From NCBI RefSeq assembly GCF_026559675.1, contig NZ_CP092891.1:2976001-3040000 (forward strand): DNA of 64,000 bases, written 5' to 3'. This stretch comes from Microbacterium oxydans (GTDB lineage: Bacteria; Actinomycetota; Actinomycetes; Actinomycetales; Microbacteriaceae). The notes under the pieces were generated by a model. It made no database searches. It worked only from the letters and a program-made list of their open reading frames with translations, and was not told the origin of the DNA. Position 1 is the first letter of the stretch. Each line of letters starts with the position of its first letter. Shown piece by piece: positions 1-59,784 of this stretch. The position numbers and the translations under genes were made by a program.

Positions 1-447
1 CCACTGCCCGGTGCGCACCACGATCGCCAGTCCCACGAGCGCAGCGAGCGCGAAGAAGACCAGTCCGATGACCAGGACGGTGCGCGGCTTCACCCGACCG
101 GACGCCGTCAGTCGCGCCGGGCCGACCCGGTGGGCGTCGGTGCCTCGGACGCCGTCGCTGTAGTCGTTCGTGAAGTTCACGCCGATCTGCAACAGGACCG
201 CGACGGCGAGGCAGGCGAGCGCGATGACCCAGTGGAACTCCGGCCCCGTGCTGCGCGCCGCGCCCGTGCCGATGATCACGGGTGCGATCGCCAGCGGCAA
301 CGTGCGCAGACGAGCGGCCCCGATCCAATCGGATACCGTCACCGGACCCGCTTCGATGACCGGACGCTTCGCCGGGTTGCCGCTGGTGCGGGCCGGGGTG
401 CGCTTGGCGCTGGGGGTCTTCTTCTTGCGCTGGGAGGATGCTGCCAC
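1..447 (-). CDS. menA: 1,4-dihydroxy-2-naphthoate polyprenyltransferase (5' part only)
   Basis: UbiA-superfamily membrane enzyme that attaches a polyprenyl chain to 1,4-dihydroxy-2-naphthoate in menaquinone synthesis. Only the first 149 residues are present; the rest lies beyond the left edge. A basic tail of about 30 residues is followed by SDWIGAARLRTLPLAIAPVI, typical of MenA. Then comes the Asp-rich prenyl-diphosphate motif NFTNDYSDGVRGTDAHRVGP, which is the diagnostic feature. The start is GTG at 447. A TAGGAT hexamer ends 7 nt upstream and there is no Shine-Dalgarno sequence, so the transcript is probably leaderless. Confidence 0.9.
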   Translation of the reverse strand, partial: MAASSQRKKKTPSAKRTPARTSGNPAKRPVIEAGPVTVSDWIGAARLRTLPLAIAPVIIGTGAARSTGPEFHWVIALACLAVAVLLQIGVNFTNDYSDGVRGTDAHRVGPARLTASGRVKPRTVLVIGLVFFALAALVGLAIVVRTGQW

Positions 448-22343: not shown

Positions 22344-23113
22344 CCCGATTGGCGACCGAGGACCTGCGCGCCGGCTACGGAGGCCGCGGCGTGCTGGACG
22401 GCCTCGACGTGCGCATCCCCGACGCGGAGCTGACGGTGATCGTGGGCCCGAACGCCTGCGGCAAGTCGACGCTGCTCCGCGCACTCGCCCGGCTGCTCCC
22501 CGCGACGGGCGGGCGGGTGCTCCTCGACGGCGGCGACATCACCCGGCTGTCCACCAAGGAGGTGGCTCGGCGGATGGGGCTGCTGCCGCAGAGCCCCCTC
22601 GCGCCGGAGGGGATCACCGTGTCCGACCTGGTCGGTCGCGGTCGCTACCCGCATCAGAGCGTGCTGTCGAGCTGGTCCGTGGAGGACGAGCGCGCCGTTG
22701 CCGATGCCATGGCCGCCACGAACGTCACCGACCTCGCGGATCGGAACGTGGACGAGCTCTCAGGGGGTCAGCGTCAGCGCGCCTGGATCGCGATGGCCCT
22801 GGCCCAGGAGACCCCGATCCTGCTGCTCGACGAGCCGACGACCTTCCTCGACATCGGCCACCAGATCGAGGTGCTCGAGCTCGTCACGCGGCTGTATCAG
22901 GAGGGTCGCACGGTCGTGGTCGTGCTGCACGACATCAACCAGGCGGCCCGGTACGCCTCGCACCTCATCGCGATGAAGGACGGGCGCATCGTCGCCGAGG
23001 GCGCACCTCGCGACATCGTGGACGCCGCGCTGCTCACCGAGCTGTTCGATCTCGAGGCCCGCGTCATCGCCGACCCGGACACGGGCGCACCCGTCGTACT
23101 GCCCGGTCGCTGA
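22340..23113 (+). CDS. Iron-siderophore ABC transporter ATP-binding protein
   Basis: 257 residues: Walker A GPNACGKST at 36-44 (A-C in place of the more common G-S-G), signature LSGGQRQRAWIAMALAQ, Walker B ILLLDEPTTFLD, and the switch His in VLHDINQAARY. The length and the ARMGLLPQSPLAPEGITVSD Q-loop region are typical of FepC/FhuC ATPases. It completes the divergent siderophore uptake system with the two upstream permeases. Confidence 0.93.
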   Translation: MTRLATEDLRAGYGGRGVLDGLDVRIPDAELTVIVGPNACGKSTLLRALARLLPATGGRVLLDGGDITRLSTKEVARRMGLLPQSPLAPEGITVSDLVGRGRYPHQSVLSSWSVEDERAVADAMAATNVTDLADRNVDELSGGQRQRAWIAMALAQETPILLLDEPTTFLDIGHQIEVLELVTRLYQEGRTVVVVLHDINQAARYASHLIAMKDGRIVAEGAPRDIVDAALLTELFDLEARVIADPDTGAPVVLPGR

Positions 23114-47304: not shown

Positions 47305-48012
47305 TCAGGAGGCCGCGACGAGCGGGAGCAGCTCGCGCTGGACGAGCACGTCGCGCAGGGCGGTGATGTCGCTGAGCACGGCATCGGCACCCGCGCCGCT
47401 GAGGGCAGGACGGTCGTGGGCACCGGTGAGCACACCCGCGACGAAGCCCGCACCGGCCCGACGCCCCGACTCGACATCGCTCACGGTGTCTCCGACGACC
47501 GCGACGGCCGCGACGGAGGAGGTCTGCGTGCGCAGCAGCGCGCTGAGCACGAGGTCGGGCGCGGGGCGTCCGCGACCGGCGTCGATCGGCGACAGCGCCA
47601 GGTCGATGAGTCCGTGCCAGCCGAGGCCGTCGAGGAGCGCCTCGCGCGTGACCGGCGCGAAGCCCGTGGTGAGCACGACCTTCAGCCCGGCATCCTTCAG
47701 TCCCTGGATCGCGTCGGCCGCGCCGGGGATCTCCGAGACGCCCTGCTCCGCGACGATCTCGGCGTAGGCGCCCTCGAAGGCGGCGGTCGCGCGCTCGGCC
47801 GCGACGACGTCGCCGCCGGCGAGATGCGTGAAGACGTCGATCTTCGACTGCCCCATGGTCACGCGCACGTAGTCGAGCGCTTCGGCCCACGGCATCCGGT
47901 CGGCGACGCCGGTGCGCTCGGCGGCGCGCTGGAACGCCTGCTCCACGACGCCGTCGTCGAGCACCGTGGTTCCCGCCATGTCGAGGACGACGAGTTCGAG
48001 AGGAGTGGTCAT
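47305..48012 (-). CDS. Phosphonatase-like HAD hydrolase (PhnX-related)
   Basis: 235 residues. HAD motif 1 is VVLDMAGTT with nucleophile D11 and the PhnX-like AGT. The cap has MGQSKIDVF, where K57 aligns with the Schiff-base Lys of phosphonoacetaldehyde hydrolase (LLKIDH in PhnX). Motifs 3-4 are GRPAPD and VVGDTVSDVESG. This supports C-P bond cleavage of phosphonoacetaldehyde to acetaldehyde and phosphate. The family corresponds to TIGR03351. The ATG at 48012 overlaps the stop of the flavoprotein gene (ATGA), with GGAAGGAAC as ribosome site. Confidence 0.88.
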   Translation of the reverse strand: MTTPLELVVLDMAGTTVLDDGVVEQAFQRAAERTGVADRMPWAEALDYVRVTMGQSKIDVFTHLAGGDVVAAERATAAFEGAYAEIVAEQGVSEIPGAADAIQGLKDAGLKVVLTTGFAPVTREALLDGLGWHGLIDLALSPIDAGRGRPAPDLVLSALLRTQTSSVAAVAVVGDTVSDVESGRRAGAGFVAGVLTGAHDRPALSGAGADAVLSDITALRDVLVQRELLPLVAAS

Positions 48013-49148
48013 GATGTTCCTTCCATTGCTGCCGCCCACCCGAAGGCGGCGGTGAGATTCTGTTCGGCCAGGCCCAACCCCGTGGTCATCCCGATGCCGG
48101 TGGTCGCGGCGAGCACGAGCACGCCGTCGTCGCCCCGGTCGATCAGGAACTCCTGCCGGCCCTTCGCGTACACGCCCTGCCAGCGCTCGAGCACGCGGGG
48201 TGCCGGCGCATCGAACAGCGCCTCCGCCTCGGTGAGGAACGCGGAGAAGGCGGCCTCGGGCTGGAACGGCGCCGGCGCTACGGCCGTGGTGTGCGAGTCG
48301 CCGATGATGAGCGTGCCGTCGGGCAGCTGCGTGTACATCTGGTTGAGGTCGATCGCGGCGAGGTCGGGGCGCTCGGCGTGCAGACGCTCCCGCAGCGCGG
48401 TGGCCTCCGGTCCGTCCGAGAACCGGCCGTAGCGGACGAGCGACCAGCCGGTGAGCAGCGGTGCGGCGAGCGGATGCCGGAACGACACCGCCGCCCGCAT
48501 CATGTCGAGGGCGCAGCGCACGACCCCGTGGCGTTCGGCGACGTCGGGCAGCAGCTGATCGATGTCGTGGTTCACGGCGACGACGACGCTCGCGCAGCCG
48601 ATCGGACCGCGGGTGGTGTCCACACGGCCCTCCCCCACCGCGGTGACGGCGGTGCGGAAGCGGAACTCCACGCCCCGCTCCGCCAGGTGACGGACGATCG
48701 CGTCGGCCGCCGTGCGCGGATCGGTCTGCAGGTCGGTCTCGATGTGCGCGCCGCCGACGAGCCCCTCGGCACGGAGCGGTGCGAGGCGCAGGAGCTCGGC
48801 GGCCTCCAGCATCCGGATGCCGCCGTCACTGGCCGCGGCCTCGAGCACGGCGAGCTCGTCGTCGTGGCGGGCCGCGACGAGTGTGCCCGACTCGCGCAGC
48901 CAGAAGCCCGCATCCTGGGAGAGACGCAGCCACAGGTCGCGCGAGGCGTCGGCGTAGCGTCGCGCCTCCCCTCCCTGCGCACCGATGCAGAGGTGCCCGA
49001 AGTTGCGGATCGTGGCGCCGATCGGCGCCTCGGTGCGGTCGACCACGATCACGCGCAGACCGCGCCGCACCGCCGCGTAGGCCGCACCGAGACCGACGAT
49101 GCCGGAGCCGACCACGACGAGGTCGGCCGTGTCGAGGGGACGATTCAT
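48009..49148 (-). CDS. FAD-dependent amine oxidase-like protein of the phosphonate locus (HpnW-like)
   Basis: 379-residue flavoprotein of the glycine oxidase/DAO fold: VVVGSGIVGLGAAYAAVRRG at the N-terminus and the FAD/C-terminal motif AATTGIGMTTGLGLAEQNLT. It matches the TIGR03364 group that occurs in phosphonate operons. No PhnW transaminase gene is present, so it probably converts 2-aminoethylphosphonate or an N-alkyl form to phosphonoacetaldehyde; this is inference. Its ATG overlaps the stop of phnE, and its stop overlaps the HAD start. Confidence 0.85.
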   Translation of the reverse strand: MNRPLDTADLVVVGSGIVGLGAAYAAVRRGLRVIVVDRTEAPIGATIRNFGHLCIGAQGGEARRYADASRDLWLRLSQDAGFWLRESGTLVAARHDDELAVLEAAASDGGIRMLEAAELLRLAPLRAEGLVGGAHIETDLQTDPRTAADAIVRHLAERGVEFRFRTAVTAVGEGRVDTTRGPIGCASVVVAVNHDIDQLLPDVAERHGVVRCALDMMRAAVSFRHPLAAPLLTGWSLVRYGRFSDGPEATALRERLHAERPDLAAIDLNQMYTQLPDGTLIIGDSHTTAVAPAPFQPEAAFSAFLTEAEALFDAPAPRVLERWQGVYAKGRQEFLIDRGDDGVLVLAATTGIGMTTGLGLAEQNLTAAFGWAAAMEGTS

Positions 49149-50902
49149 CGGAACACCTTCCGCATCCACATGGCCAGCCCTTCGACGACGAGCACGGTGG
49201 CGAGGATCATCAGCACGATCGCCGTCACGGTCTCGTAGCGCGAGCCCTGGCTGGCGTTGAGCAGGTAGTAGCCGACACCTCCGCCGCCGACGATGCCGAG
49301 GATCGTCGCCGCGCGGATGTTCGTGTCGAGCATGTAGAAGCTGTGGCCGATGAGCGCCTGCATGCCCTGCGGCACGGTGGCCGAGGTGTAGGTCTGCAGA
49401 CGTGTCGCCCCCACGGCGCGCAGCGCGCGCTCGGGGCCGCGGTCCACCTCTTCGAACGAGTCGGCGATGAGCTTGCCGAGCAGGCCGATGCCGCCGATCG
49501 CGAGGGCGATGACGCCGGCCTGCGCACCGAGGCCGGTGATGACCACGAGCACGATCGCGAGGATCAGCTCCGGGATGCCGCGGATGCCGACGAGCAGCAG
49601 TCGCGCCGTGCCCCGCGCCCCCGAGCTCGGAGCGACGTTGCGGGCCGCGAGCGAGCCGAGCACGAGCGACGGGAGCAGGGTGAGCACGGTCGCGGCGAGG
49701 GCGATGGCGACGGTGTCGCGCATGGCCTGGAACATGGTGCTCGCGTCGTAGTTGCCGAACGACGGCGGCCAGAACTTCGCGGCGACCTCGGGCAGTTTGG
49801 CCCAGAAGGTGAGAAGGTCCATCCAGTTGATCTGGCTCACCACGACGCTGCCGATCACCACGAGCACGGCGACGACGCCGGCGATCGTGTGTCGCACGCG
49901 CTGCGCGGTCCAGGGCCGACGCACGGCCGACTCCGGACTGGCCGCCCAGGCCGGGCGCCCCGCGGGAGCTGCGGCGGCGCTCGCTCCGAGACGCGGGTGC
50001 AGGAGGCGGTCCATCCACGAGCGGGTGTGCTTCTGCTCGCCGAGCATCGCCCCTCGGACCATGCTGGAGACGATCTCCATGACGATGCAGAGGAGGAAGA
50101 TGACCAGCGCGATGCCGAGGCCCTTGCCGTAGTTGAGCGACTTGAAGGCGTACGACATCTCGAGGCCGAGGCCGGCGACGCCGACGTAGCCGAGCACGAC
50201 GCTGCCGCGCAGGTTGATGTCGTTGCGGTGCAGCACGGTGGCCACCCAGCTGGGCAGCACCTGCGGCAGGATGCCGGACGTGAACTCCTGCATCTTCGAA
50301 CCGCCGGCCGCCCGGATGGCGAGACGGGGGCCTTCGTCGATCTGCTCGATCGCGTCGGCGAACATCTTCGAGATCATGCCGATCGAGTGGATGCCGATGG
50401 CGAGGATGCCGGGAAGCGTGCCGAGCGAGAACATCAGCACGAACGCCATCGCGAGCACGACGTCGGGGAGGGCGCGCGTGAGGACGCCGACGAAGCGGGC
50501 AGCGGCGCGCCACCCGTTCCCCGGCGTCGTGTTCGAGGCGGCGAGGTAGGCGATCGGCACCGACAGCACGGCGGCGAGCAGCGTGCCCACGAGCACCAGG
50601 CCCACCGTGAGCGCGATCAGCCAGGCGAGGTCGCCGGGCTCGGGGAATGTGAGGCCGCCGACGCGCGCCATGAAGTTCTCGGCGTTGCCCCAGCTCTGCA
50701 CCATCGCCGGGATCGAGATGTCGACGTCGCGGACGGCGAGGATGCCGAGCACCACGAGGGCTACGAGCGTGAGGGATGCCGCGATCCGCTCCGGCGAGAT
50801 CGGGCGCTTCGGGGCGCGCTCCGCGACACCGCGTCCGCCGCCCTGAGGTGCCGATCCGCCACCGTGGATCGCGGAGTCCGTCGAGGCGTCCAGAGCCGTC
50901 AT
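49145..50902 (-). CDS. phnE: Phosphonate ABC permease, two PhnE units fused
   Basis: 585 residues, about twice a normal PhnE. The first unit (residues about 35-310) has ALPDVVLAMAFVLMFSLGTL and EQIDEGPRLAIRAAGGSKMQ as the EAA coupling loop. The second (residues about 335-585) has GIRGIPELILAIVLVVITGL and EEVDRGPERALRAVGATRLQ. One chain can therefore form the whole membrane channel. The stop overlaps the flavoprotein start and the start overlaps the phnC stop (ATGA), so the operon is tightly coupled. Confidence 0.92.
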   Translation of the reverse strand: MTALDASTDSAIHGGGSAPQGGGRGVAERAPKRPISPERIAASLTLVALVVLGILAVRDVDISIPAMVQSWGNAENFMARVGGLTFPEPGDLAWLIALTVGLVLVGTLLAAVLSVPIAYLAASNTTPGNGWRAAARFVGVLTRALPDVVLAMAFVLMFSLGTLPGILAIGIHSIGMISKMFADAIEQIDEGPRLAIRAAGGSKMQEFTSGILPQVLPSWVATVLHRNDINLRGSVVLGYVGVAGLGLEMSYAFKSLNYGKGLGIALVIFLLCIVMEIVSSMVRGAMLGEQKHTRSWMDRLLHPRLGASAAAAPAGRPAWAASPESAVRRPWTAQRVRHTIAGVVAVLVVIGSVVVSQINWMDLLTFWAKLPEVAAKFWPPSFGNYDASTMFQAMRDTVAIALAATVLTLLPSLVLGSLAARNVAPSSGARGTARLLLVGIRGIPELILAIVLVVITGLGAQAGVIALAIGGIGLLGKLIADSFEEVDRGPERALRAVGATRLQTYTSATVPQGMQALIGHSFYMLDTNIRAATILGIVGGGGVGYYLLNASQGSRYETVTAIVLMILATVLVVEGLAMWMRKVFR

Positions 50903-51723
50903 GATGCCGCCACCTGGGCCGCGGCTTCCACGAGCTCCTCCTGCACGGCACGGATCTCGGCGGTCGTGGTCGCGACGCGTCCGTAGATCTCCATGACCTC
51001 GGCCTTGGTGAGGTCACCGGTCGGGGTGTCCAGCACGACCTCGCCGTGACGCAGGCCGACGATGCGGTCGGCCCACGAGATGGCGAGGTCGACCTGGTGC
51101 AGGCTGCACACCACGGTGAGGCCCTCGTCGGCGGCGATCTCGCGGATCAGCGCCATGACCTGCTCGCTCGACTCGGGGTCGAGCGACGCGACCGGCTCGT
51201 CCGCGAGCAGGATCGCCGGCTTCTGCATGAGGGCGCGGGCGATGGCCACCCGCTGCTGCTGTCCGCCCGAGAGCGTGTCGCTGCGCTGGTAGGCGCGGTC
51301 GAGCAGCCCGACGCGGTCGAGGTGCTCGAGCGCGGTGAGCTTCGAGGCCCGCGAGTAGCCCCAGAGGCCGAGACGCGGTCCGCGCACACCGGACAGGGAG
51401 CCGGTGAGTACGTTCTCGAGCACCGTGAGCGACGGCACGAGCTCGAACTGCTGGAAGATGAAGCCGACGCGGCTGCGGAGATCGCGCAGCGCCCTCCCCT
51501 TGAGCGCGGGGACCTGGGACCCGAGCACCTCGACGGAGCCGGACGTGGGGATCTCGAGGCCGTCGAGATGCCGCAGCAGGGTGGACTTCCCCGAGCCGGA
51601 CAGCCCGAGGAGCACGACGATCTCCCCGCGGGAGACCTCCAGCGAGGCGTCCTTCAGGGCGGTCGTCGTCCCGAAGGTCTTCGTCACGCCGTCGAGACGG
51701 ATGAGGGCGTCGGATGCAGTCAT
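50899..51723 (-). CDS. phnC: Phosphonate ABC transporter ATP-binding protein
   Basis: 274 residues: Walker A GLSGSGKST near residue 39, signature LSGGQQQRVAIARALMQKPA, Walker B ILLADEPVASLDPES, and switch His in SLHQVDLA. LRDLRSRVGFIFQQFELVPS is the Q-loop region typical of PhnC. It powers the fused PhnE channel. It is separated from phnD by 144 nt containing repeats and a strong hairpin. Confidence 0.93.
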   Translation of the reverse strand: MTASDALIRLDGVTKTFGTTTALKDASLEVSRGEIVVLLGLSGSGKSTLLRHLDGLEIPTSGSVEVLGSQVPALKGRALRDLRSRVGFIFQQFELVPSLTVLENVLTGSLSGVRGPRLGLWGYSRASKLTALEHLDRVGLLDRAYQRSDTLSGGQQQRVAIARALMQKPAILLADEPVASLDPESSEQVMALIREIAADEGLTVVCSLHQVDLAISWADRIVGLRHGEVVLDTPTGDLTKAEVMEIYGRVATTTAEIRAVQEELVEAAAQVAAS

Positions 51724-51743
51724 GTCAGTTTCCTGTCGGTCTT

Positions 51744-51826
51744 CCGGTCGTGGAGCGAGCGAAGCTTCCCGGTCGTGGAGCGAGCGGCGCTCCCCGGTCG
51801 TTGAGCGAGCGAAGCGAGTCGAAACG
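51744..51826. repeat. Three 25-bp repeats ending in a GGTCGTTGAGCGAGCGAAG-type element
   Basis: CCGGTCGTGGAGCGAGCG starts at 51744, 51769 and (with one T change) 51794, an exact 25-nt period. The third copy continues as AAGCGAGTCGAAACG and runs into the hairpin at 51825. Sequences of the GGTCGTTGAGCGAGCG type recur between genes in Microbacteriaceae genomes (from memory), so this is probably a dispersed intergenic repeat that has been duplicated in tandem. Confidence 0.75.
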
Positions 51827-51857
51827 CCCCACCCGGCGCGAGACGCCGGGTGGGGCG
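51825..51857 (-). terminator. 14-bp perfect stem-loop between phnD and phnC
   Basis: Arms 51825-51838 (CGCCCCACCCGGCG) and 51844-51857, loop CGAGA, only 10 nt after the phnD stop in the minus direction, followed by GTTTCG. It is terminator-like. Partial termination or 3'-end protection would give more PhnD binding protein than PhnC/E, as is usual in ABC operons. Confidence 0.65.
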
Positions 51858-51867
51858 GTTCAGCGGG

Positions 51868-52797
51868 TCAGGCCTTGCACTGCTCCGCTTCGGTCTCCTT
51901 GCAGATGTCGCGGATCAGGTCGTAGTACGCGTCGTCGACGGGCTTCGTGGCGTAGAACACGCTGCGGAAGGCGTCGGAGTCGGCGCTGTCGATGCCGGCG
52001 GCGATGATGTCGTCGATCGTGATCTCGGAGAGGCCGTCGATGAGCTTCTTCGACACGTCGTCGGGAAGCGTGGACGAGTAGACGAGCGGCGCACCGGGGA
52101 CCATCGTCTCGTCGATGACCTTGACCTTGTCGGACTTGGCGACCTCGGAGTCCTCGGCGAAGCCCGCCTCGCACTCGACGCCTTCGCCGACCTTGGTGAC
52201 GCTCACGTCGTGCTTGCCCGCGAACACCGGGGTGATGTCGGTCTTGGGGTCGACGCCCGCCTTGAGGAGGTTGTACGACGGGAAGAGGTAGCCGGAGGTC
52301 GAGGACGGGTCGACGAAGCAGACCTTCTTGCCCTTGAAGTCCTCGAGGCTCTTGATGTCGCTGTCCGCGGGGACGATCGCCTGCGAGTAGTAGCCCGGCT
52401 CCTGGCCCTCGGCGGTGACGATCGAGGAGATCGGGGTGAGCTTGGCGCCGTTGTTGGTGGCGGTGACGTACGTGAAGCCGGAGAACGACGCGACGTCGAC
52501 CTTGCCGGCGACGGCGGCCTCGATGAGGGCGGCGTAGTCGGTCGACTCGTGGTACTCGACCGTCTTGCCGGTGATCTCGGCGATGTAGTCCATGAGGGGC
52601 TGGTAGTTCGTCTCGGTGTCGACCGAGTCGGGGACGACGCCGAAGACGAGCGTGTTCTCGTCGACCGCGAACCCGCTGGTGGAGGACGACTCGTCGGCGC
52701 CGGGGGTGCCGGACGCGTCAGCCGAGCCGGAACACGCGGCGAGGCCGAGGGCGAGGAGCGCGACGCCGGCGAGGGCGGGGAGAGCGCGAAGCTTCAT
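51868..52797 (-). CDS. phnD: Phosphonate ABC transporter binding lipoprotein
   Basis: 309 residues. A signal peptide with lipobox (LGLAACSGS) is followed by a PhnD/TauT-type binding fold: NTLVFGVVPDSVDTETNYQP, then ALIEAAVAGKVDVASFSGFT, CFVDPSSTSGYLFPSYNLLK and DDVSKKLIDGLSEI. It binds phosphonates outside the membrane. It is the promoter-proximal gene of the operon. A TGTACCTA element, also found at the divergent GntR gene, lies 63 nt upstream. Confidence 0.92.
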   Translation of the reverse strand: MKLRALPALAGVALLALGLAACSGSADASGTPGADESSSTSGFAVDENTLVFGVVPDSVDTETNYQPLMDYIAEITGKTVEYHESTDYAALIEAAVAGKVDVASFSGFTYVTATNNGAKLTPISSIVTAEGQEPGYYSQAIVPADSDIKSLEDFKGKKVCFVDPSSTSGYLFPSYNLLKAGVDPKTDITPVFAGKHDVSVTKVGEGVECEAGFAEDSEVAKSDKVKVIDETMVPGAPLVYSSTLPDDVSKKLIDGLSEITIDDIIAAGIDSADSDAFRSVFYATKPVDDAYYDLIRDICKETEAEQCKA

Positions 52798-52859
52798 GAG
52801 GACCTTTCAGGGTGTGAGGGGTGATCCACGGAAGACTCTCGCAGGTGCCGAGCCGAGAT

Positions 52860-52868
52860 ATGTACCTA
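52860..52868. promoter_or_regulatory. Candidate GntR operator, phnD side
   Basis: ATGTACCTA with a GTAC core, 63 nt before the phnD start; an identical copy lies at 52957-52965. A shared 9-mer at both ends of a 169-nt divergent gap is the expected arrangement for sites of the HutC-type regulator encoded at 52967. Confidence 0.5.
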
Positions 52869-52956
52869 ACTCGAAAGAGTTCAGGGCTCGTTTACCCAGC
52901 ATTAGCCTGGATGAACACTCCTGTAACGTGCTCACGCCGGACGGGCTGACGAAGTA

Positions 52957-52965
52957 ATGTACCTA
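52957..52965. promoter_or_regulatory. Candidate GntR operator, regulator side
   Basis: Second copy of ATGTACCTA, ending 1 nt before the GTG start of the GntR gene and overlapping its putative -10 element TAATGT (52955-52960). Binding here would block the regulator's own, probably leaderless, transcription. Confidence 0.5.
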
Positions 52966-52966
52966 T

Positions 52967-53710
52967 GTGGCCGAAGCTGTGTACACCCAGATCGCTGACG
53001 ACCTCCGCGCGCAGATCGCGGCCGGAACGCTCCGCCCCGGCGATGACGTGCCCACCGAGGCCGAGCTCGCCGAGAGGTGGCGCACATCGCGCGGCCCGAT
53101 CCGCAACGCCCTGGCCGCCCTGCGCGGCGAGGGTCTGCTCGAGACGAGCCGAGGGCGCCCGGCGCGGGTCGTCGCCCGCAAGGCCAACCAGGCCGTGGAC
53201 GTGTCCGTCCCGTTCACCCGCTGGGCGCGCGAACTCGGCGTCGCGCCCGGCGCGCAGACGCAGGAGTTGAGCCTGAGGCGCGCCGGCGACATGGCGGCGG
53301 CCCTCGGCGTCGAGCCGACCGACACGATCGTGAGCGTGGTGCGGCTGCGCCTGCTCGACGGCCGGCCGACCATGCTCGAGCGCCTCAACTACACGGAGGC
53401 CGTCGGTCGCCGACTGTTCGAGGTGAACCTCGACGAGATCTCCATCACGGAGTACCTGTCGTCGGTCGGCCACCCGATCGTCACACTGCAGCACGTCATC
53501 GACGCGGTCGCTGCCGATGAGCAGGACGCCGCGCTGCTGCGGGTGCCGCGCGGGACTCCCATCCTGCGGCTCAACCGCACCTCCCGCGATGCCGAGGGGA
53601 GGATCTTCGAGGCCTCCGAGGATCGCTACCTGAGCGAGGTGGTGCGCTTCACGGTCGCCGCATCCGGCATCTCGACCGACGGCCACTACATGCGGGCGGT
53701 CGGCGCGTAG
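52967..53710 (+). CDS. HutC-subfamily GntR regulator of the phosphonate operon
   Basis: 247 residues. The N-terminal winged helix is YTQIADDLRAQIAAGTLRPG, then LAERWRTSRGPIRNALAALR. The C-terminal UTRA domain (residues about 95-240) has ALGVEPTDTIVSVVRLRLLD, ERLNYTEA and a final FEASEDRYLSEVVRFTV. It is divergent from phnD and is the likely phosphonate-responsive repressor (PhnF/PhnR role). The start GTG at 52967 has TAATGT 6 nt upstream and no Shine-Dalgarno. Confidence 0.9.
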   Translation: MAEAVYTQIADDLRAQIAAGTLRPGDDVPTEAELAERWRTSRGPIRNALAALRGEGLLETSRGRPARVVARKANQAVDVSVPFTRWARELGVAPGAQTQELSLRRAGDMAAALGVEPTDTIVSVVRLRLLDGRPTMLERLNYTEAVGRRLFEVNLDEISITEYLSSVGHPIVTLQHVIDAVAADEQDAALLRVPRGTPILRLNRTSRDAEGRIFEASEDRYLSEVVRFTVAASGISTDGHYMRAVGA

Positions 53711-55104: not shown

Positions 55105-55133
55105 GGTGCACTATCTCCTATATGCCAGCTATC

Positions 55134-55181
55134 CTAGCGGTAGAGACCAAAAAGCTTGCCAACCTGCTGCCAGAAAGACAT
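55134..55181 (-). CDS. Micro-ORF encoding a 15-residue peptide before the sensor kinase gene
   Basis: The ORF reads MSFWQQVGKLFGLYR and stops at TAG, 29 nt before the kinase start. It is preceded by GGAGGTGA with a 5-nt spacer, the best Shine-Dalgarno in the whole window, so translation is very likely. The peptide is amphipathic with net charge +2 and aromatic residues F, W, F and Y. An in-frame ATG at 55196 would give five more residues but lacks a ribosome site. No family is recognised. It could be a signal peptide for the kinase, a membrane-active peptide, or a coupling/leader peptide. The local sequence is less GC-rich than its surroundings. Confidence 0.6.
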   Translation of the reverse strand: MSFWQQVGKLFGLYR

Positions 55182-55267
55182 AGGATTCACCTCCATTTAC
55201 TAGCCGTTCGTTGATGTCTGTATTCATCTTCTCGGCGAATCCCCGCGGGCACATCGGACTCTGGTCC

Positions 55268-55289
55268 AGACCTTTTTGGCCAAAGGTCT
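55268..55289. promoter_or_regulatory. Inverted repeat in the kinase/response regulator divergent gap
   Basis: AGACCTTT-TTGGCC-AAAGGTCT, a perfect 8-bp inverted repeat with a 6-nt spacer; the centre TTTGGCCAAA is itself a palindrome. It is 41 nt before the response regulator start and about 86 nt before the micro-ORF. It is a good candidate binding site for the regulator encoded at 55331, controlling both directions. Confidence 0.6.
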
Positions 55290-55330
55290 ACATCGCTCTC
55301 GCGCGTCGCGCGCGCCGTTAGGCTTCCCCC

Positions 55331-56007: not shown

Positions 56008-58344
56008 ATGAGCCCGCCCGTTCCCGGATGGGCCGCTCATCTCCTCGGGCTCCCGGGGGCGGTGTCGTTCCGCCGATACCTGCCGATCGTCCGCGCCGCG
56101 GGCACGCTCGGAGAGCGGATGCGGGCGCTGGACGACGCTGCTCTCCGGGCTGAGGCCGGATCGCTCGACCTCCGCACCGGCGTCCGGCAGCTGCCGCCGG
56201 ACGCGACCGCCCGGTATCTCGCGATCGCGCGCGAAGCGGCCGATCGCACACTCGGCCTGCGGGCGTTCGACGAGCAGCTCCTCGCGTGCTGCGCGTTGCT
56301 GTCCGGCCACGCCGTGGAGATGGACACCGGCGAGGGCAAGACCCTGGTCGGCGCTCTCGCGGCCGCGGGGTTCGCGACCGCGGGCAGACGGGTGCACGTG
56401 ATCTCGGTCAACGACTATCTCGCCGAACGCGACGCCACCTGGATGGGTGCCTTCTTCGGTCTGGTCGGGGTGAGCGTGGGCTGGGTCGGCCAGCACACCC
56501 CTCCGGAGGATCGGCGCACCGCCTATCGATCTGACGTCGTCTACGCGCCCGTGAGCGAGATCGGGTTCGACGTGCTCCGCGATCGCTTCGCCGTCGCCGA
56601 CGACGAACGGGTCGGACCGGTGTTCGACGCGGCGATCGTCGACGAGGTGGATGCGGTGATGATCGACGAGGCGATGGTCCCCCTCGTCCTCGCGGGCGCC
56701 ACGGACGATCAGGCGGACCCGTTCGAGGAGGCCACGGCGCTCGTGGAGAGCCTCGTGCCGGACGCGGACTTCACGGTGGACGGCGAACAGGCGACCGTGA
56801 GCCTGACCGACGACGGGCTCGACCGGGTGGAGGAGCGGCTCGGCGGGATCAACCTCTACAACCTGGAGCATCTCGGCATGCTCACCCGCATCAACCTCGC
56901 CCTGCACGCGCGGGTCCTCGTCCACCGCGACGTGGACTATCTGGTGACGGACGGCAGGATCACCCTGATCAACACCACGCGAGGGCGGACAGCGCATCTG
57001 CAGCGCTGGCCCGACGGGCTCCACGCCGCGCTCGAGGCGAAGGAGCACCTCGCCGCGTCCGCTCCCGGCGCGATCCTCGACCAGATCACGGTCCAGGACC
57101 TCCTCCTCCGCTACGAGACCCGATCGGGGATGAGCGGCACGGTCACCCCGGTGGCGGAGGACCTCCTCGAGTTCTACCGCCTGCCGGCGGGCAGGGTCGA
57201 ACGCCACGAGCCGAACCGCCGGGTCGACGGACCGGATGTCATCGTCATGAGCGAGGACGAGAAGACCGCGGCCGTGATCGAGGAGATCGCCGCACGCCAC
57301 CGCTCGGGACAACCGGTGCTGGTCGGCACCCAGAGTGTCGCCGAATCCGAGACGCTCGCCGATCGCCTCCGCGCGACGGGCATCCCGGTGCGGGTGCTCA
57401 ACGCGAAGAACGATGCGGAGGAAGCGGCCATCATCGCCCGCGCGGGCGAGTACGCGGCCGTGACGATCTCGACGCAGATGTCCGGGCGCGGCACGGACAT
57501 CAGGCTCGGCGGGCCCGACGAGGAGGACCGCGACCGCACGGTGGGAGCCGGGGGTCTCGCCGTGATCGCGACCGGCAGATACCCCTCACGCCGTCTCGAC
57601 GCACAGCTCCGCGGGCGCGCGGGTCGGCAGGGTGACCCCGGCGTCAGCCGCACCTTCCTCAGCCTCGACGACGACCTCGTGCGGATGCATGCGACCGCCG
57701 AGATGCTCGCCCGCATCGACCGTCAGCGGGACGCCCTGCCCGCCCTCGAGCGTCGGCGCATCGCCGACCAGTGCCAGTCGATCGCCGAGAGCATGCGCAC
57801 CGACCGTCATCGTGCGACCTGGGTCTACAACCGCGCCATCGCGGCACAGCGCGACGCCGTGCTGCGGCACCGGAGCGACGTCGTCGACGGAGATGTCTCC
57901 GACGCCCGGATCCGCGAACTCGTCCCCGAGCAGTGGCGCCGACTCGTGGCGGCCCGGGGCGCGGATGCCGTGTCCGAGACCGCGCGCGCCGTCGCGGTGC
58001 ACTTCCTGGACGAGCAGTGGGTCACGCACCTCATGGTCCTCCAGGAGCTGCGCGACGGCATCCACCTCCGCGCCCTCGGTGGCGAGAAACCGGCCGACGA
58101 GTTCCACCGGCTCGCGCTCCGCGAGTTCCAGGGCTTCTTCGACGGCGCGTACGGCAGCACCGCGGACTTCCTCCGCGAACTCACCCCGGACGACGTCGGA
58201 CGCGACCTCGTGGATCTGGGCCTCCGCCGGCCGTCGGCCACCTGGACCTACATGGTCACCGATGACCCCTACGGCTCCCCCGGCGACCGCTTCGTCCGCC
58301 GAATCGGGAAGTTCGTCCGCTCCCGACTCCTCGACCTGGAGTAG
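56008..58344 (+). CDS. secA2: Accessory preprotein translocase ATPase SecA2
   Basis: 778 residues, shorter than SecA1 (about 930). Features are Walker A MDTGEGKT (105-112), the DEAD-type IVDEVDAVMIDEA, the preprotein cross-linking region GINLYNLEHL, QVS-type GMSGTVTPVAEDLLEFYRLP, and TISTQMSGRGTDIRLGG with LRGRAGRQGDPG in the second ATPase half. The C-terminal zinc/SecB-binding tail of SecA1 is missing, as in SecA2 proteins. It exports a subset of proteins. It lies 20 nt after the response regulator, so it is probably co-transcribed. Its last 759 nt overlap the HNH ORF on the other strand. Confidence 0.93.
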   Translation: MSPPVPGWAAHLLGLPGAVSFRRYLPIVRAAGTLGERMRALDDAALRAEAGSLDLRTGVRQLPPDATARYLAIAREAADRTLGLRAFDEQLLACCALLSGHAVEMDTGEGKTLVGALAAAGFATAGRRVHVISVNDYLAERDATWMGAFFGLVGVSVGWVGQHTPPEDRRTAYRSDVVYAPVSEIGFDVLRDRFAVADDERVGPVFDAAIVDEVDAVMIDEAMVPLVLAGATDDQADPFEEATALVESLVPDADFTVDGEQATVSLTDDGLDRVEERLGGINLYNLEHLGMLTRINLALHARVLVHRDVDYLVTDGRITLINTTRGRTAHLQRWPDGLHAALEAKEHLAASAPGAILDQITVQDLLLRYETRSGMSGTVTPVAEDLLEFYRLPAGRVERHEPNRRVDGPDVIVMSEDEKTAAVIEEIAARHRSGQPVLVGTQSVAESETLADRLRATGIPVRVLNAKNDAEEAAIIARAGEYAAVTISTQMSGRGTDIRLGGPDEEDRDRTVGAGGLAVIATGRYPSRRLDAQLRGRAGRQGDPGVSRTFLSLDDDLVRMHATAEMLARIDRQRDALPALERRRIADQCQSIAESMRTDRHRATWVYNRAIAAQRDAVLRHRSDVVDGDVSDARIRELVPEQWRRLVAARGADAVSETARAVAVHFLDEQWVTHLMVLQELRDGIHLRALGGEKPADEFHRLALREFQGFFDGAYGSTADFLRELTPDDVGRDLVDLGLRRPSATWTYMVTDDPYGSPGDRFVRRIGKFVRSRLLDLE

Positions 58345-59784
58345 CCGGAGGGAGCGCTGCGGCGCGCGCCAGCGACGGTCCGGGTCCCACCATGCGGGTC
58401 CGCGGATCTGCGGGATGCCCCTGTCCATCCGGATCTCCCATCCCGACCGGTCCAGCGAGCGGTGGTGCCACCAGCACAACGGCACACCGTTGTCGGTGTG
58501 CGTCTCGCCACCCCTGGCGTGCTCGATCACATGATGGATCTCGCACCAGGAAGCGGGAACATGGCACCCGGGTATCAGGCATTCACGATCACGGGCGACG
58601 ATGGCACGCCGCTGATGAACCGTGAAAACCCGGTCGGTCACGGACACACCGATGATGCGTCCCGCATCGAGGAGCACACGCTGGATCGCCCCGCCGCACG
58701 CGGCCTGTCTCGCCACCCCGAGGGGGACAGGAGCCTGCGAGCCGGCGATCGTCGACCACCCTGCTCCTGTCGCGATGTCCTTCACATCCGCCTGCACCAC
58801 CAGAGTGGGTGCGGCGCCGGCCAGCTTCGGCATCTCATCGTGACGAGCTGCGATCCCCATCGCCGCGGCCAGCGCATCGTGACGCTTCTGCGCCGCGGTG
58901 CGGGCATCGATCACGGCGCGCGGATCGGCGTTCCACGGATCTGTGTTCCCAGGATCGGTGTTCCCGGGATCGCCTTCGGCCGCCACGGCGTCGGAATCTC
59001 GGAACACGACGCCCGGATGCGGCGGACCGTCGGTCTTCGGATTGCACTGCGCGTCGATGATGAGTTGCAGCTGCGCCGCGGCATCCGGCAGCAGATTCCC
59101 TCGGAGCGGGTGCACGCCGTCGCGCAACCGCCCGACCGTCACGAACCGCTGCTGTTGCGCCCGGAGGTCGGAGGGCTCCGCACCATCAGGGTCGAGGGCC
59201 ATCGCCAAGGCCTGCGCGAACTGACGGATGTCGTCCGGCGTCGCCGGCGGCGCCGTACCAGCATCGGCATCGGCATCGGCATCGGCATCGGCATCGGCAG
59301 GACACCCGCGCGCGAACGCGGCGAGCGCGGCATCCGCCGTCAACCGGTCGGTGACGCCGATCCGATCCCCGGCCTGATCGATCGGTCCGGTCGCCGCGAG
59401 AACCCCGGCCACCCCGATCGCACCGTCGAGGAGTGCCTCACGAACCTCGGGGTAGCGTGCAGGAAGCCGCTCCCCCGACGACAACGCCACCTCACGTCGC
59501 ACGGCGGATGCCGCCTTGAGCATCTTCGATGCACCGGGAGCGTCGACCCGCGCCACCCGCTGCAGAAGCTCGTTCGTCGAGCGGCAGCCGAAGCCGTCGG
59601 AGAACCGCGGCTCGGCCGAGGCCACCGTCGCCACGATCACCGCCTCCACGCGGCGGAGCGCGTCACCCGCAGCGCGCAGGGCGTCCATCCGCTCGGCATC
59701 CGTGAGCGCGGTGAACACATCGACGGACAGCACGCGATCGAGATCGGCGACGACCTGATCCACAGCATCCGCGAGGGAGTTCAT
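57586..59784 (-). CDS. DUF222/HNH endonuclease (13E12-type) with an ORF that runs antisense into secA2
   Basis: 732 codons. Residues about 1-250 are DUF222 (LRRVEAVIVATVASAEPRFS). Residues about 390-450 are the HNH site (CLIPGCHVPASWCEIHHVIE, then NGVPLCWWHHRSLDRSGWEI). Normal family members end soon after the RRWRAPQRSLR-type segment near residue 470. Here no stop occurs until 57586, so residues about 481-732 are encoded opposite secA2 and look like a shadow frame. Either the native stop was lost or the extra part is translated by default. An (Asp-Ala) run comes from a hexanucleotide repeat, and GNTDP repeats follow. These genes are multi-copy in many actinobacteria. Confidence 0.8.
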   Translation of the reverse strand: MNSLADAVDQVVADLDRVLSVDVFTALTDAERMDALRAAGDALRRVEAVIVATVASAEPRFSDGFGCRSTNELLQRVARVDAPGASKMLKAASAVRREVALSSGERLPARYPEVREALLDGAIGVAGVLAATGPIDQAGDRIGVTDRLTADAALAAFARGCPADADADADADADAGTAPPATPDDIRQFAQALAMALDPDGAEPSDLRAQQQRFVTVGRLRDGVHPLRGNLLPDAAAQLQLIIDAQCNPKTDGPPHPGVVFRDSDAVAAEGDPGNTDPGNTDPWNADPRAVIDARTAAQKRHDALAAAMGIAARHDEMPKLAGAAPTLVVQADVKDIATGAGWSTIAGSQAPVPLGVARQAACGGAIQRVLLDAGRIIGVSVTDRVFTVHQRRAIVARDRECLIPGCHVPASWCEIHHVIEHARGGETHTDNGVPLCWWHHRSLDRSGWEIRMDRGIPQIRGPAWWDPDRRWRAPQRSLRLLQVEESGADELPDSADEAVAGGAVGVIGDHVGPGGRRPAEAQIHEVASDVVRGEFAEEVRGAAVRAVEEALELAEREPVELVGRFLATEGAEVDAVAQLLEDHEVRDPLLVQEVHRDGARGLGHGIRAPGRHESAPLLGDEFADPGVGDISVDDVAPVPQHGVALCRDGAVVDPGRTMTVGAHALGDRLALVGDAPTLEGGQGVPLTVDAGEHLGGRMHPHEVVVEAEEGAADAGVTLPTRAPAELCVETA
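59261..59296. repeat. Hexanucleotide microsatellite (GCATCG x6)
   Basis: Six perfect copies of GCATCG inside the HNH gene, encoding alternating Asp-Ala on the minus strand near residue 170. Copy changes keep the frame, so the protein can vary in length without inactivation. Confidence 0.85.

Follow-up and report, generated by a model that had tools for sequence, protein, structure and literature searches.

A conserved 15-codon gene next to a DesK-like sensor kinase in Microbacterium: a candidate peptide ligand in a proposed peptide-kinase-regulator circuit

A 15-codon gene that precedes a DesK-like sensor kinase gene in Microbacterium oxydans encodes, with a probability of roughly 0.6, a dedicated peptide ligand of that kinase. 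Peptide, kinase, and a divergently encoded NarL-type regulator would together form a circuit that is likely autoinducing. We favor this reading because it explains the linkage of the genes, the selection on the peptide at the protein level, the codivergence of the peptide with kinase membrane helices 1 to 4 (TM1-4), and the longer relatives of the peptide. The gene lies in a 64,000-nt stretch of DNA analyzed as a whole (the window). The initial annotation of the locus, made from the window alone, had likened it to a peptide signaling circuit. The gene proved to be real, selected, and linked to the kinase and the regulator, and it tracks the membrane sensor, whereas the proposed operon, the involvement of secA2, and the cationic, amphipathic character of the peptide were not supported.

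By direct reading of the minus strand, the peptide ATG is at 55181-55179 and the TAG stop is at 55136-55134, with the kinase ATG (55104, same strand) 29 nt after the stop. Frame, strand, GGAGGTGA, and the 5-nt spacing of that sequence before the peptide ATG, all in front of the kinase gene, are as originally described (Table 1). The claim that this is the best ribosome site in the window is nearly right but not strictly so: an 8- to 9-nt Shine-Dalgarno match occurs at 3 of 4105 start triplets in the window, and one of the three, at 22574, is longer. The site had also been called hard to explain as chance. However, the window contains GGAGGTGA 5 times against 2.58 expected, and 8 of 100 shuffles gave at least as many. 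Taken within the window alone, the ribosome site is no better than chance, so this argument fails by itself; it is conservation across orthologous loci that places the peptide frame far above chance. The peptide had also been described as amphipathic, but its helical moment is not exceptional: when its residues were shuffled, the moment was at least as high in 1399 of 5000 cases.

Table 1. Coordinates of the peptide gene, its neighbors, and putative control elements in the window
Feature	Position	Strand	Basis
15-codon peptide gene MSFWQQVGKLFGLYR	55134..55181	-	Read directly; intact in 112/113 orthologous loci; pN/pS 0.48
Shine-Dalgarno GGAGGTGA	55187..55194	-	5 nt between GGAGGTGA and peptide ATG
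Sensor kinase, 380 aa	53962..55104	-	PF07730 at 4.2e-10
Divergent NarL/LuxR-type response regulator, 218 aa	55331..55987	+	PF00072, PF00196
Candidate peptide -10 GAAGAT	55226..55231	-	Conserved blocks in intergenic alignment; putative role
Candidate regulator operator TAGACCTTTGGCCAAAAAGGTCTGG	55266..55290	-	Conserved in intergenic alignment; putative
Candidate kinase -10 GATAGT (leaderless)	55110..55115	-	5 nt before kinase ATG; putative activity
Candidate regulator -10 TAGGCT (leaderless)	55319..55324	+	6 nt before regulator ATG; conserved in alignment; putative

A first scan of named genomes yielded 21 orthologous loci, all from Microbacterium, and the 15-codon frame and its ribosome site were present in all 21. 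Among 366 Microbacterium genomes searched, 145 had a kinase match at 1e-30 and 92, by our own row count, had a close kinase orthologue (at least 54% identity; all were fetched, including one partial and one broken copy). The peptide frame was intact in 91 of these 92 genomes. Genomes from the genus search and the named loci together gave 113 loci, with some strains repeated; the 112 intact loci, from which L140 is excluded by name, fall into 64 DNA versions that encode 49 different peptides. A match to GGAGGTGA extended over 8 letters in 90 of the 112 loci and over 7 letters in the other 22. By the initial annotation, absence or breakage of the frame in orthologues would have counted against the peptide gene; in that comparison the frame survives in 112 of 113 loci.

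Conservation within this clade is of the encoded peptide. With six shortened peptides padded for position counts, W4 is present in 49 of 49 distinct peptides and G12 in 48 of 49, and residues close to the stop are conserved. The ratio pN/pS, calculated pairwise and without a tree for the 58 of 64 distinct versions that have 15 codons, was 0.48 in the peptide frame versus 0.76 and 1.52 in the other two frames. All 49 peptides carry a net charge of +1 or +2, a uniformity limited to the clade. A longer overlapping frame starting at -123 was rejected as the coding frame, being missing or cut short in many rows, with higher pN/pS in the frames other than that of the peptide. The single exception, G106 (L140), has frameshifts in the regulator, peptide, and kinase genes. 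Joint decay of the circuit was considered for this genome, but the adjoining phnE and phnD are shifted too, which makes assembly errors the likelier cause. Sampling 398 genomes across the family gave a close kinase (1e-40) in 3, all Microbacterium: the source genome of the window and 2 of 8 sampled congeneric relatives. Two scans detected no peptide copy ahead of any of the six remaining HisKA_3 kinases in the source genome, one of which (L004) has an upstream end that is not visible.

The kinase that follows the peptide gene appears to sense from within the membrane. Its AlphaFold2 model (mean pLDDT, 82.2; pTM, 0.50) has helices at residues 24-47, 53-68, 73-90, 93-110, 113-133, and 137 onward. 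In this model, we read the six as membrane helices that enter a HisKA_3/DesK-like core, with no outer domain; four of the six exceed a hydropathy cutoff of 1.6. The best PDB fold matches are to DesK (Foldseek, 1.2e-09 to 7ssj), and a phmmer search (2e-04 to 3gig) likewise indicates a DesK-like core. HisKA_3 was the sole Pfam match, and the kinase was not assigned to the AgrC type. Since the kinase core is cytosolic and the number of helices is even, the turn between TM3 and TM4 is assigned to the outside.

Divergence of the peptide was compared with that of the kinase in 87 unique kinases of the window's clade, each of at least 350 residues. Peptide distance correlated at 0.78 with distance in the membrane helices (TM distance) and at 0.63 with distance in the catalytic domain. 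The partial correlation of peptide with TM distance, given catalytic distance, was 0.59 (0 of 2000 permutations), while that of peptide with catalytic distance, given TM distance, was 0.07 (113 of 2000 permutations). When control stretches replaced the peptide, the same TM partial was 0.32 for the intergenic region, 0.21 for the downstream spacer, and 0.20 for the regulator; with all three held fixed, the peptide retained 0.54 (0 of 1000). In a rate-controlled comparison with the fastest 60 catalytic columns and intergenic distance, TM1-4 kept 0.62 and helices 5 and 6 kept 0.26, while the catalytic columns given TM1-4 fell to -0.03. Evolutionary rate is therefore not the explanation. The top 8-residue window of the kinase was 90-97 (0.54), at the predicted outer TM3-TM4 turn. 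Windows 26-33, 50-57, 74-81, 98-105, and 114-121, the last at the edge of TM1-4, gave 0.31 to 0.35; the third predicted outer turn (130-137) was unremarkable at 0.14, and the predicted cytoplasmic turns were low (0.10 for 66-73 and 0.14 for 106-113). Peptide divergence tracks kinase membrane helices 1 to 4 and not the catalytic domain, a correlation of distances among related sequences of one clade that cannot prove contact.

The regulator has VraR as its nearest solved structure (7.1e-40), and its divergent position is retained through most of the family. Between the regulator and peptide genes, at 55268-55289 inside TAGACCTTTGGCCAAAAAGGTCTGG, is the inverted repeat AGACCT-N10-AGGTCT. At up to 1 mismatch, this palindrome occurs at a single place in its own genome, and a longer form (up to 3 mismatches) occurs at one place per genome, always this locus, in 8 of 8 genomes searched. 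Because the palindrome is single in each genome, the regulator looks dedicated to this locus, with degenerate sites possible elsewhere. In an alignment of 91 intergenic regions, the blocks CCGAGAaGAT and CaGATGTG are conserved, and a conserved GATGTG lies 18 bp upstream of the candidate peptide -10, where a -35 element would sit.

The peptide and kinase genes had been described as fused in an operon. A -10-like hexamer 5 to 8 nt before the kinase start is present in 114 of 133 divergent loci versus 11 of 55 same-strand controls and, at equal spacing, 32 of 1619 other start triplets, where true starts and controls were tried at several nearby start codons and the 1619 triplets at one each. From this element, it is probable that the kinase has its own leaderless promoter, with read-through from the peptide gene possible, and an operon as the only arrangement was rejected. 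Of 15 loci folded, 5 were predicted to have a strong hairpin (z, -2.1 to -3.7) between the peptide stop and the kinase start, and the other 10, including the window (z, +1.0), had none. Together, the hexamer before the kinase and the hairpins in 5 of 15 loci suggest that the peptide gene is probably its own transcription unit. An Rfam search found no match near the gathering score at the locus.

Gene neighborhoods were compared in 21 wide loci, that is, 20 fetched loci and the window. The only clusters present in at least 3 of the 21 were the kinase, the regulator, and a generic ABC-ATPase (9 loci), which in the window and G106 is a phosphonate ATPase. No fixed exporter or conserved immunity gene was found among the neighbors in these loci. 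ABC ATPase genes lie near the regulator or kinase in L210, L221, L226, and L228, the last two of which also have ABC-2 permeases; it is possible that they represent an exporter or a target in some lineages. In the window, the circuit adjoins a phosphonate-use cluster (47305-53710) with a phosphonate-binding protein (PF12974), an ABC ATPase, a double permease, a flavin adenine dinucleotide (FAD) oxidoreductase, a HAD hydrolase, and a GntR/UTRA regulator. In G106 (L224), the circuit likewise has genes for the binding protein, ATPase, permease, and GntR regulator next to it. On the other side, the regulator gene adjoins a gene for a mycobacterial-type SecA2 (TIGR04221, 846.7 bits; 56008-58344), and a DUF222/HNH-type protein is encoded at 58300-59784 on the minus strand. 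SecA2 had been counted as part of the circuit. In a search run with a positive control, it matched in 0 of 130 related loci, a 91%-identical relative included, of which 127 hold at least 1400 nt on the relevant side; it is an accidental neighbor.

Related peptides are encoded beyond the window's clade. Distant kinases (30 to 46% identity) have a peptide with a Cys pair in the same position, for example, GIWDSLCRLLGLCS and LWTTICEMLGLCK, and in a further clade the peptides have 13 residues, as in MWYWLGQLIGIWK. With the peptides aligned at their stops, a typical core reads W-x2-[LVI]-[CGA]-x2-[LFI]-[GR]-[LIVF]-[CYWF]-[RKSN]. All 49 peptides of the window's clade have W at -12, as do 22 of 34 outside it, whereas a Cys at both -8 and -2 is present in 24 of those 34 and in none of the 49; the outside counts omit one peptide of 35 (L162, C-x6-C) and have one trailing residue cut from CSK and CQG endings. 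The net charge of the 34 core peptides outside the clade ranges from -2 to +2, with six negative, and the cationic character claimed for the window's peptide does not extend to the family. Outside the genus, the five best matches (L181 to L185, from four other genera of the family) all have such a peptide. Several W- and Cys-type loci among L162 to L167 and L170 share a recurring ACGAAAGT(C)G-like block, seen by eye ahead of the peptide gene, that is perhaps the counterpart of the window's palindrome.

An automatic scan with a motif composed after most of these peptides had been seen was applied to 228 loci, from which 193 kinases with distinct C-terminal 200 residues were counted. Where the regulator is divergent and NarL-type, a motif peptide was scored for 124 of 131 unique kinases; of these 124, 84 belong to the window's clade, and the other 40 come from 47 kinases outside it. 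In comparison, positives numbered 2 of 55 for kinases with a same-strand downstream regulator, 31 of 1310 for shuffled upstream regions, and 1 of 7 for kinases with no nearby regulator, a group in which L155 does have a regulator that the scan missed. The scan chose a spurious frame in L178, a locus that does encode a peptide, and a start in L146 and L183 that is longer than our preferred one. Seven kinases were missed: L137, L149, and L254 do have a peptide, which the scan rejected; L140 is G106; and the peptide frame of L177 continues without its stop. In the remaining two, L161 and L236, a divergent regulator is present and no peptide was found upstream of the kinase.

A quick kinase tree was built with 115 rows: the window, 10 random rows of its clade, L137, and the other unique kinases of more than 300 residues, with L138, L140, L148, L154, L240, and L245 omitted by name. 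On this tree, the 58 divergent-regulator kinases need 3 changes versus a shuffled mean of 38.5, and the same-strand group falls on one side of a branch with weak support (65). The Cys pair is scattered over the divergent half of the tree and is missing from the window's clade and the W clade, so it was likely lost at least twice. L161 and L168 are sister kinases, both without a peptide by the scan, and L168 also lacks an adjacent regulator; they offer natural tests of peptide-independent kinase function.

Longer frames occupy the peptide position outside the family. Searches at the order and class levels gave five extrafamily relatives with a divergent regulator among the loci returned and fetched. 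Four of them (L235, L237, L254, and L291) have a frame of 51 to 69 residues in the peptide position, with a Sec-like N-terminal stretch, as judged by eye, and a C-terminal C-x5-C or C-x6-C; no such frame was found in that position in the fifth, L236. Eight longer relatives had no match above the cutoff among Pfam and NCBIfam models, a negative that covers the longer relatives, as the 15-mer is below the 20-residue limit of the scan. From their shared position and the Cys pair, in sequences that are not alignable, we infer that the short peptides are homologous to the longer precursors.

In the proposed circuit of peptide, DesK-like membrane kinase, and divergent NarL-type regulator, the last probably binds the intergenic palindrome and drives the peptide promoter, which has a weak -10 and no good -35, so that the circuit would likely be autoinducing. 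The peptide itself probably leaves the cell and would act on the external side of the membrane, close to the kinase TM3-TM4 turn; such binding, the direction of the signal, and the output are predictions of the model. The window's peptide contains no signal sequence and no exporter is fixed at the locus, both of which count against this reading. Across lineages, a Sec-like precursor outside the family may have been reduced to 12 to 38 residues in the Microbacteriaceae and then to a bare 13- to 15-residue core, with no Cys pair, in the window's clade. More tentatively, and at somewhat less than even odds in our estimate, this would be an undescribed actinobacterial pheromone lineage in which a Sec-exported Cys-loop precursor was miniaturized to a bare 12- to 15-residue primary product that is read by the TM3-TM4 hairpin of a DesK-type kinase, with matched ligand and receptor specificity groups across Microbacterium. 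The peptide signaling circuit itself may be undescribed.

Absence of a signal sequence and of a fixed exporter would also be expected if the peptide were a membrane-bound intracellular partner that sets kinase activity in the same cell and is never exported. A length of 13 to 15 residues with a hydrophobic core and a kinase sensor that is apparently wholly within the membrane are in keeping with such a partner, and the codivergence with TM1-4 fits it equally well. Where on the kinase the correlation peaks argues otherwise: the top window (90-97) is at a predicted outer turn, while both predicted cytoplasmic turns score low. The precursor with a Sec-like signal in 4 of 5 divergent-regulator relatives outside the family also counts against such a partner, and we consider an intracellular partner unlikely, with perhaps one chance in several.

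Two further explanations were considered. The frame could be a cis-acting leader whose translation controls the kinase by attenuation, coupling, or ribosome arrest, as might be guessed from its shortness, its strong ribosome site just before another gene, the closeness of its stop to the kinase ATG (29 nt), and the conserved residues near that stop. However, 114 of 133 loci have a -10-like element ahead of the kinase, so that the kinase's transcript probably does not include the frame; the spacer is unstructured in the window, with hairpins in just 5 of 15 folded loci; and neither codivergence with kinase TM residues nor longer Sec-like precursors in other lineages would be expected of a leader, making it very improbable. 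Only slightly better placed is a membrane-active antimicrobial or toxin peptide under the control of the adjacent two-component system. The peptide is small and aromatic, it has a positive net charge in 49 of 49 clade members, and ABC-2 transporter genes occur near L226 and L228. Nevertheless, the core charge elsewhere runs down to -2, the helical moment is unexceptional, no immunity or export gene is conserved, and the codivergence with the kinase is specific. The conserved charge and amphipathicity that define cationic antimicrobial peptides were not found, and this explanation, too, is improbable. These comparisons favor a dedicated ligand of the kinase.

Peptide signaling is well worked out in Bacillota and thinly described in Actinomycetota. 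The three-part unit, present in 92 of 366 Microbacterium genomes searched, would supply a ready natural set of ligand and receptor variants for testing how a peptide is read by a kinase with no outer domain. Further, genes of 12 to 15 codons, which ordinary annotation often misses, can be found through their regulator.

The locus shares features with several known systems. DesK of Bacillus is known as a lipid and temperature sensor; it has five membrane helices and is not known to be accompanied by a peptide gene. The phosphotransfer and catalytic core described here is DesK-like and the sensor is apparently membrane-only, as in DesK-DesR; unlike DesK, this kinase has six predicted helices and a peptide gene fixed beside it. 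LiaFSR and VraTSR are envelope stress systems with a third membrane protein (LiaF or VraT). The regulator here is closest in the PDB to VraR and the kinase is of the intramembrane-sensing sort, but the peptide gene occupies the third place, and no recurrent third membrane protein was found among the neighbor clusters of the 21 wide loci. Phenol-soluble modulins and SHP pheromones are tiny peptides with no cleavable Sec signal, as is the window's peptide, which differs from them in sequence, in having a DesK-like kinase as its sensor, if any, and in having no linked exporter.

Parallels are also found among systems with peptide-sensing kinases. Agr- and Fsr-type systems use short thiolactone or lactone peptides, with a cysteine in the C-terminal region, and a membrane kinase with no large outer domain. 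A short peptide, a near-C-terminal Cys in many relatives, and a kinase with no large outer domain are found here as well. In contrast, this kinase is HisKA_3/DesK-like and not of the AgrC type, the window's peptide has no cysteine, and no AgrB-like recurrent neighbor was found among the neighbor clusters of the 21 wide loci. The ComX-ComP-ComA system (ComQXPA) of Bacillus combines a peptide with an important Trp that is isoprenylated in the mature form, a multihelix HisKA_3 kinase, a NarL/LuxR-type regulator, and codiverging peptide and sensor. No ComQ-type prenyltransferase is encoded at the locus; a PF00348 search of the source genome gave three genes, all outside the window, the nearest about 90 kb from it. 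Because this defining enzyme is not at the locus, the system is not a member of ComQXPA. It also differs in having no long precursor at the window's locus, a divergent instead of a downstream regulator, and a Cys pair in most relatives outside the window's clade. By analogy, the circuit logic nonetheless resembles that of ComX-ComP-ComA, with a multihelix HisKA_3 kinase and a NarL/LuxR regulator, a Trp in the peptide (W4), and a peptide and kinase sensor that diverge together.
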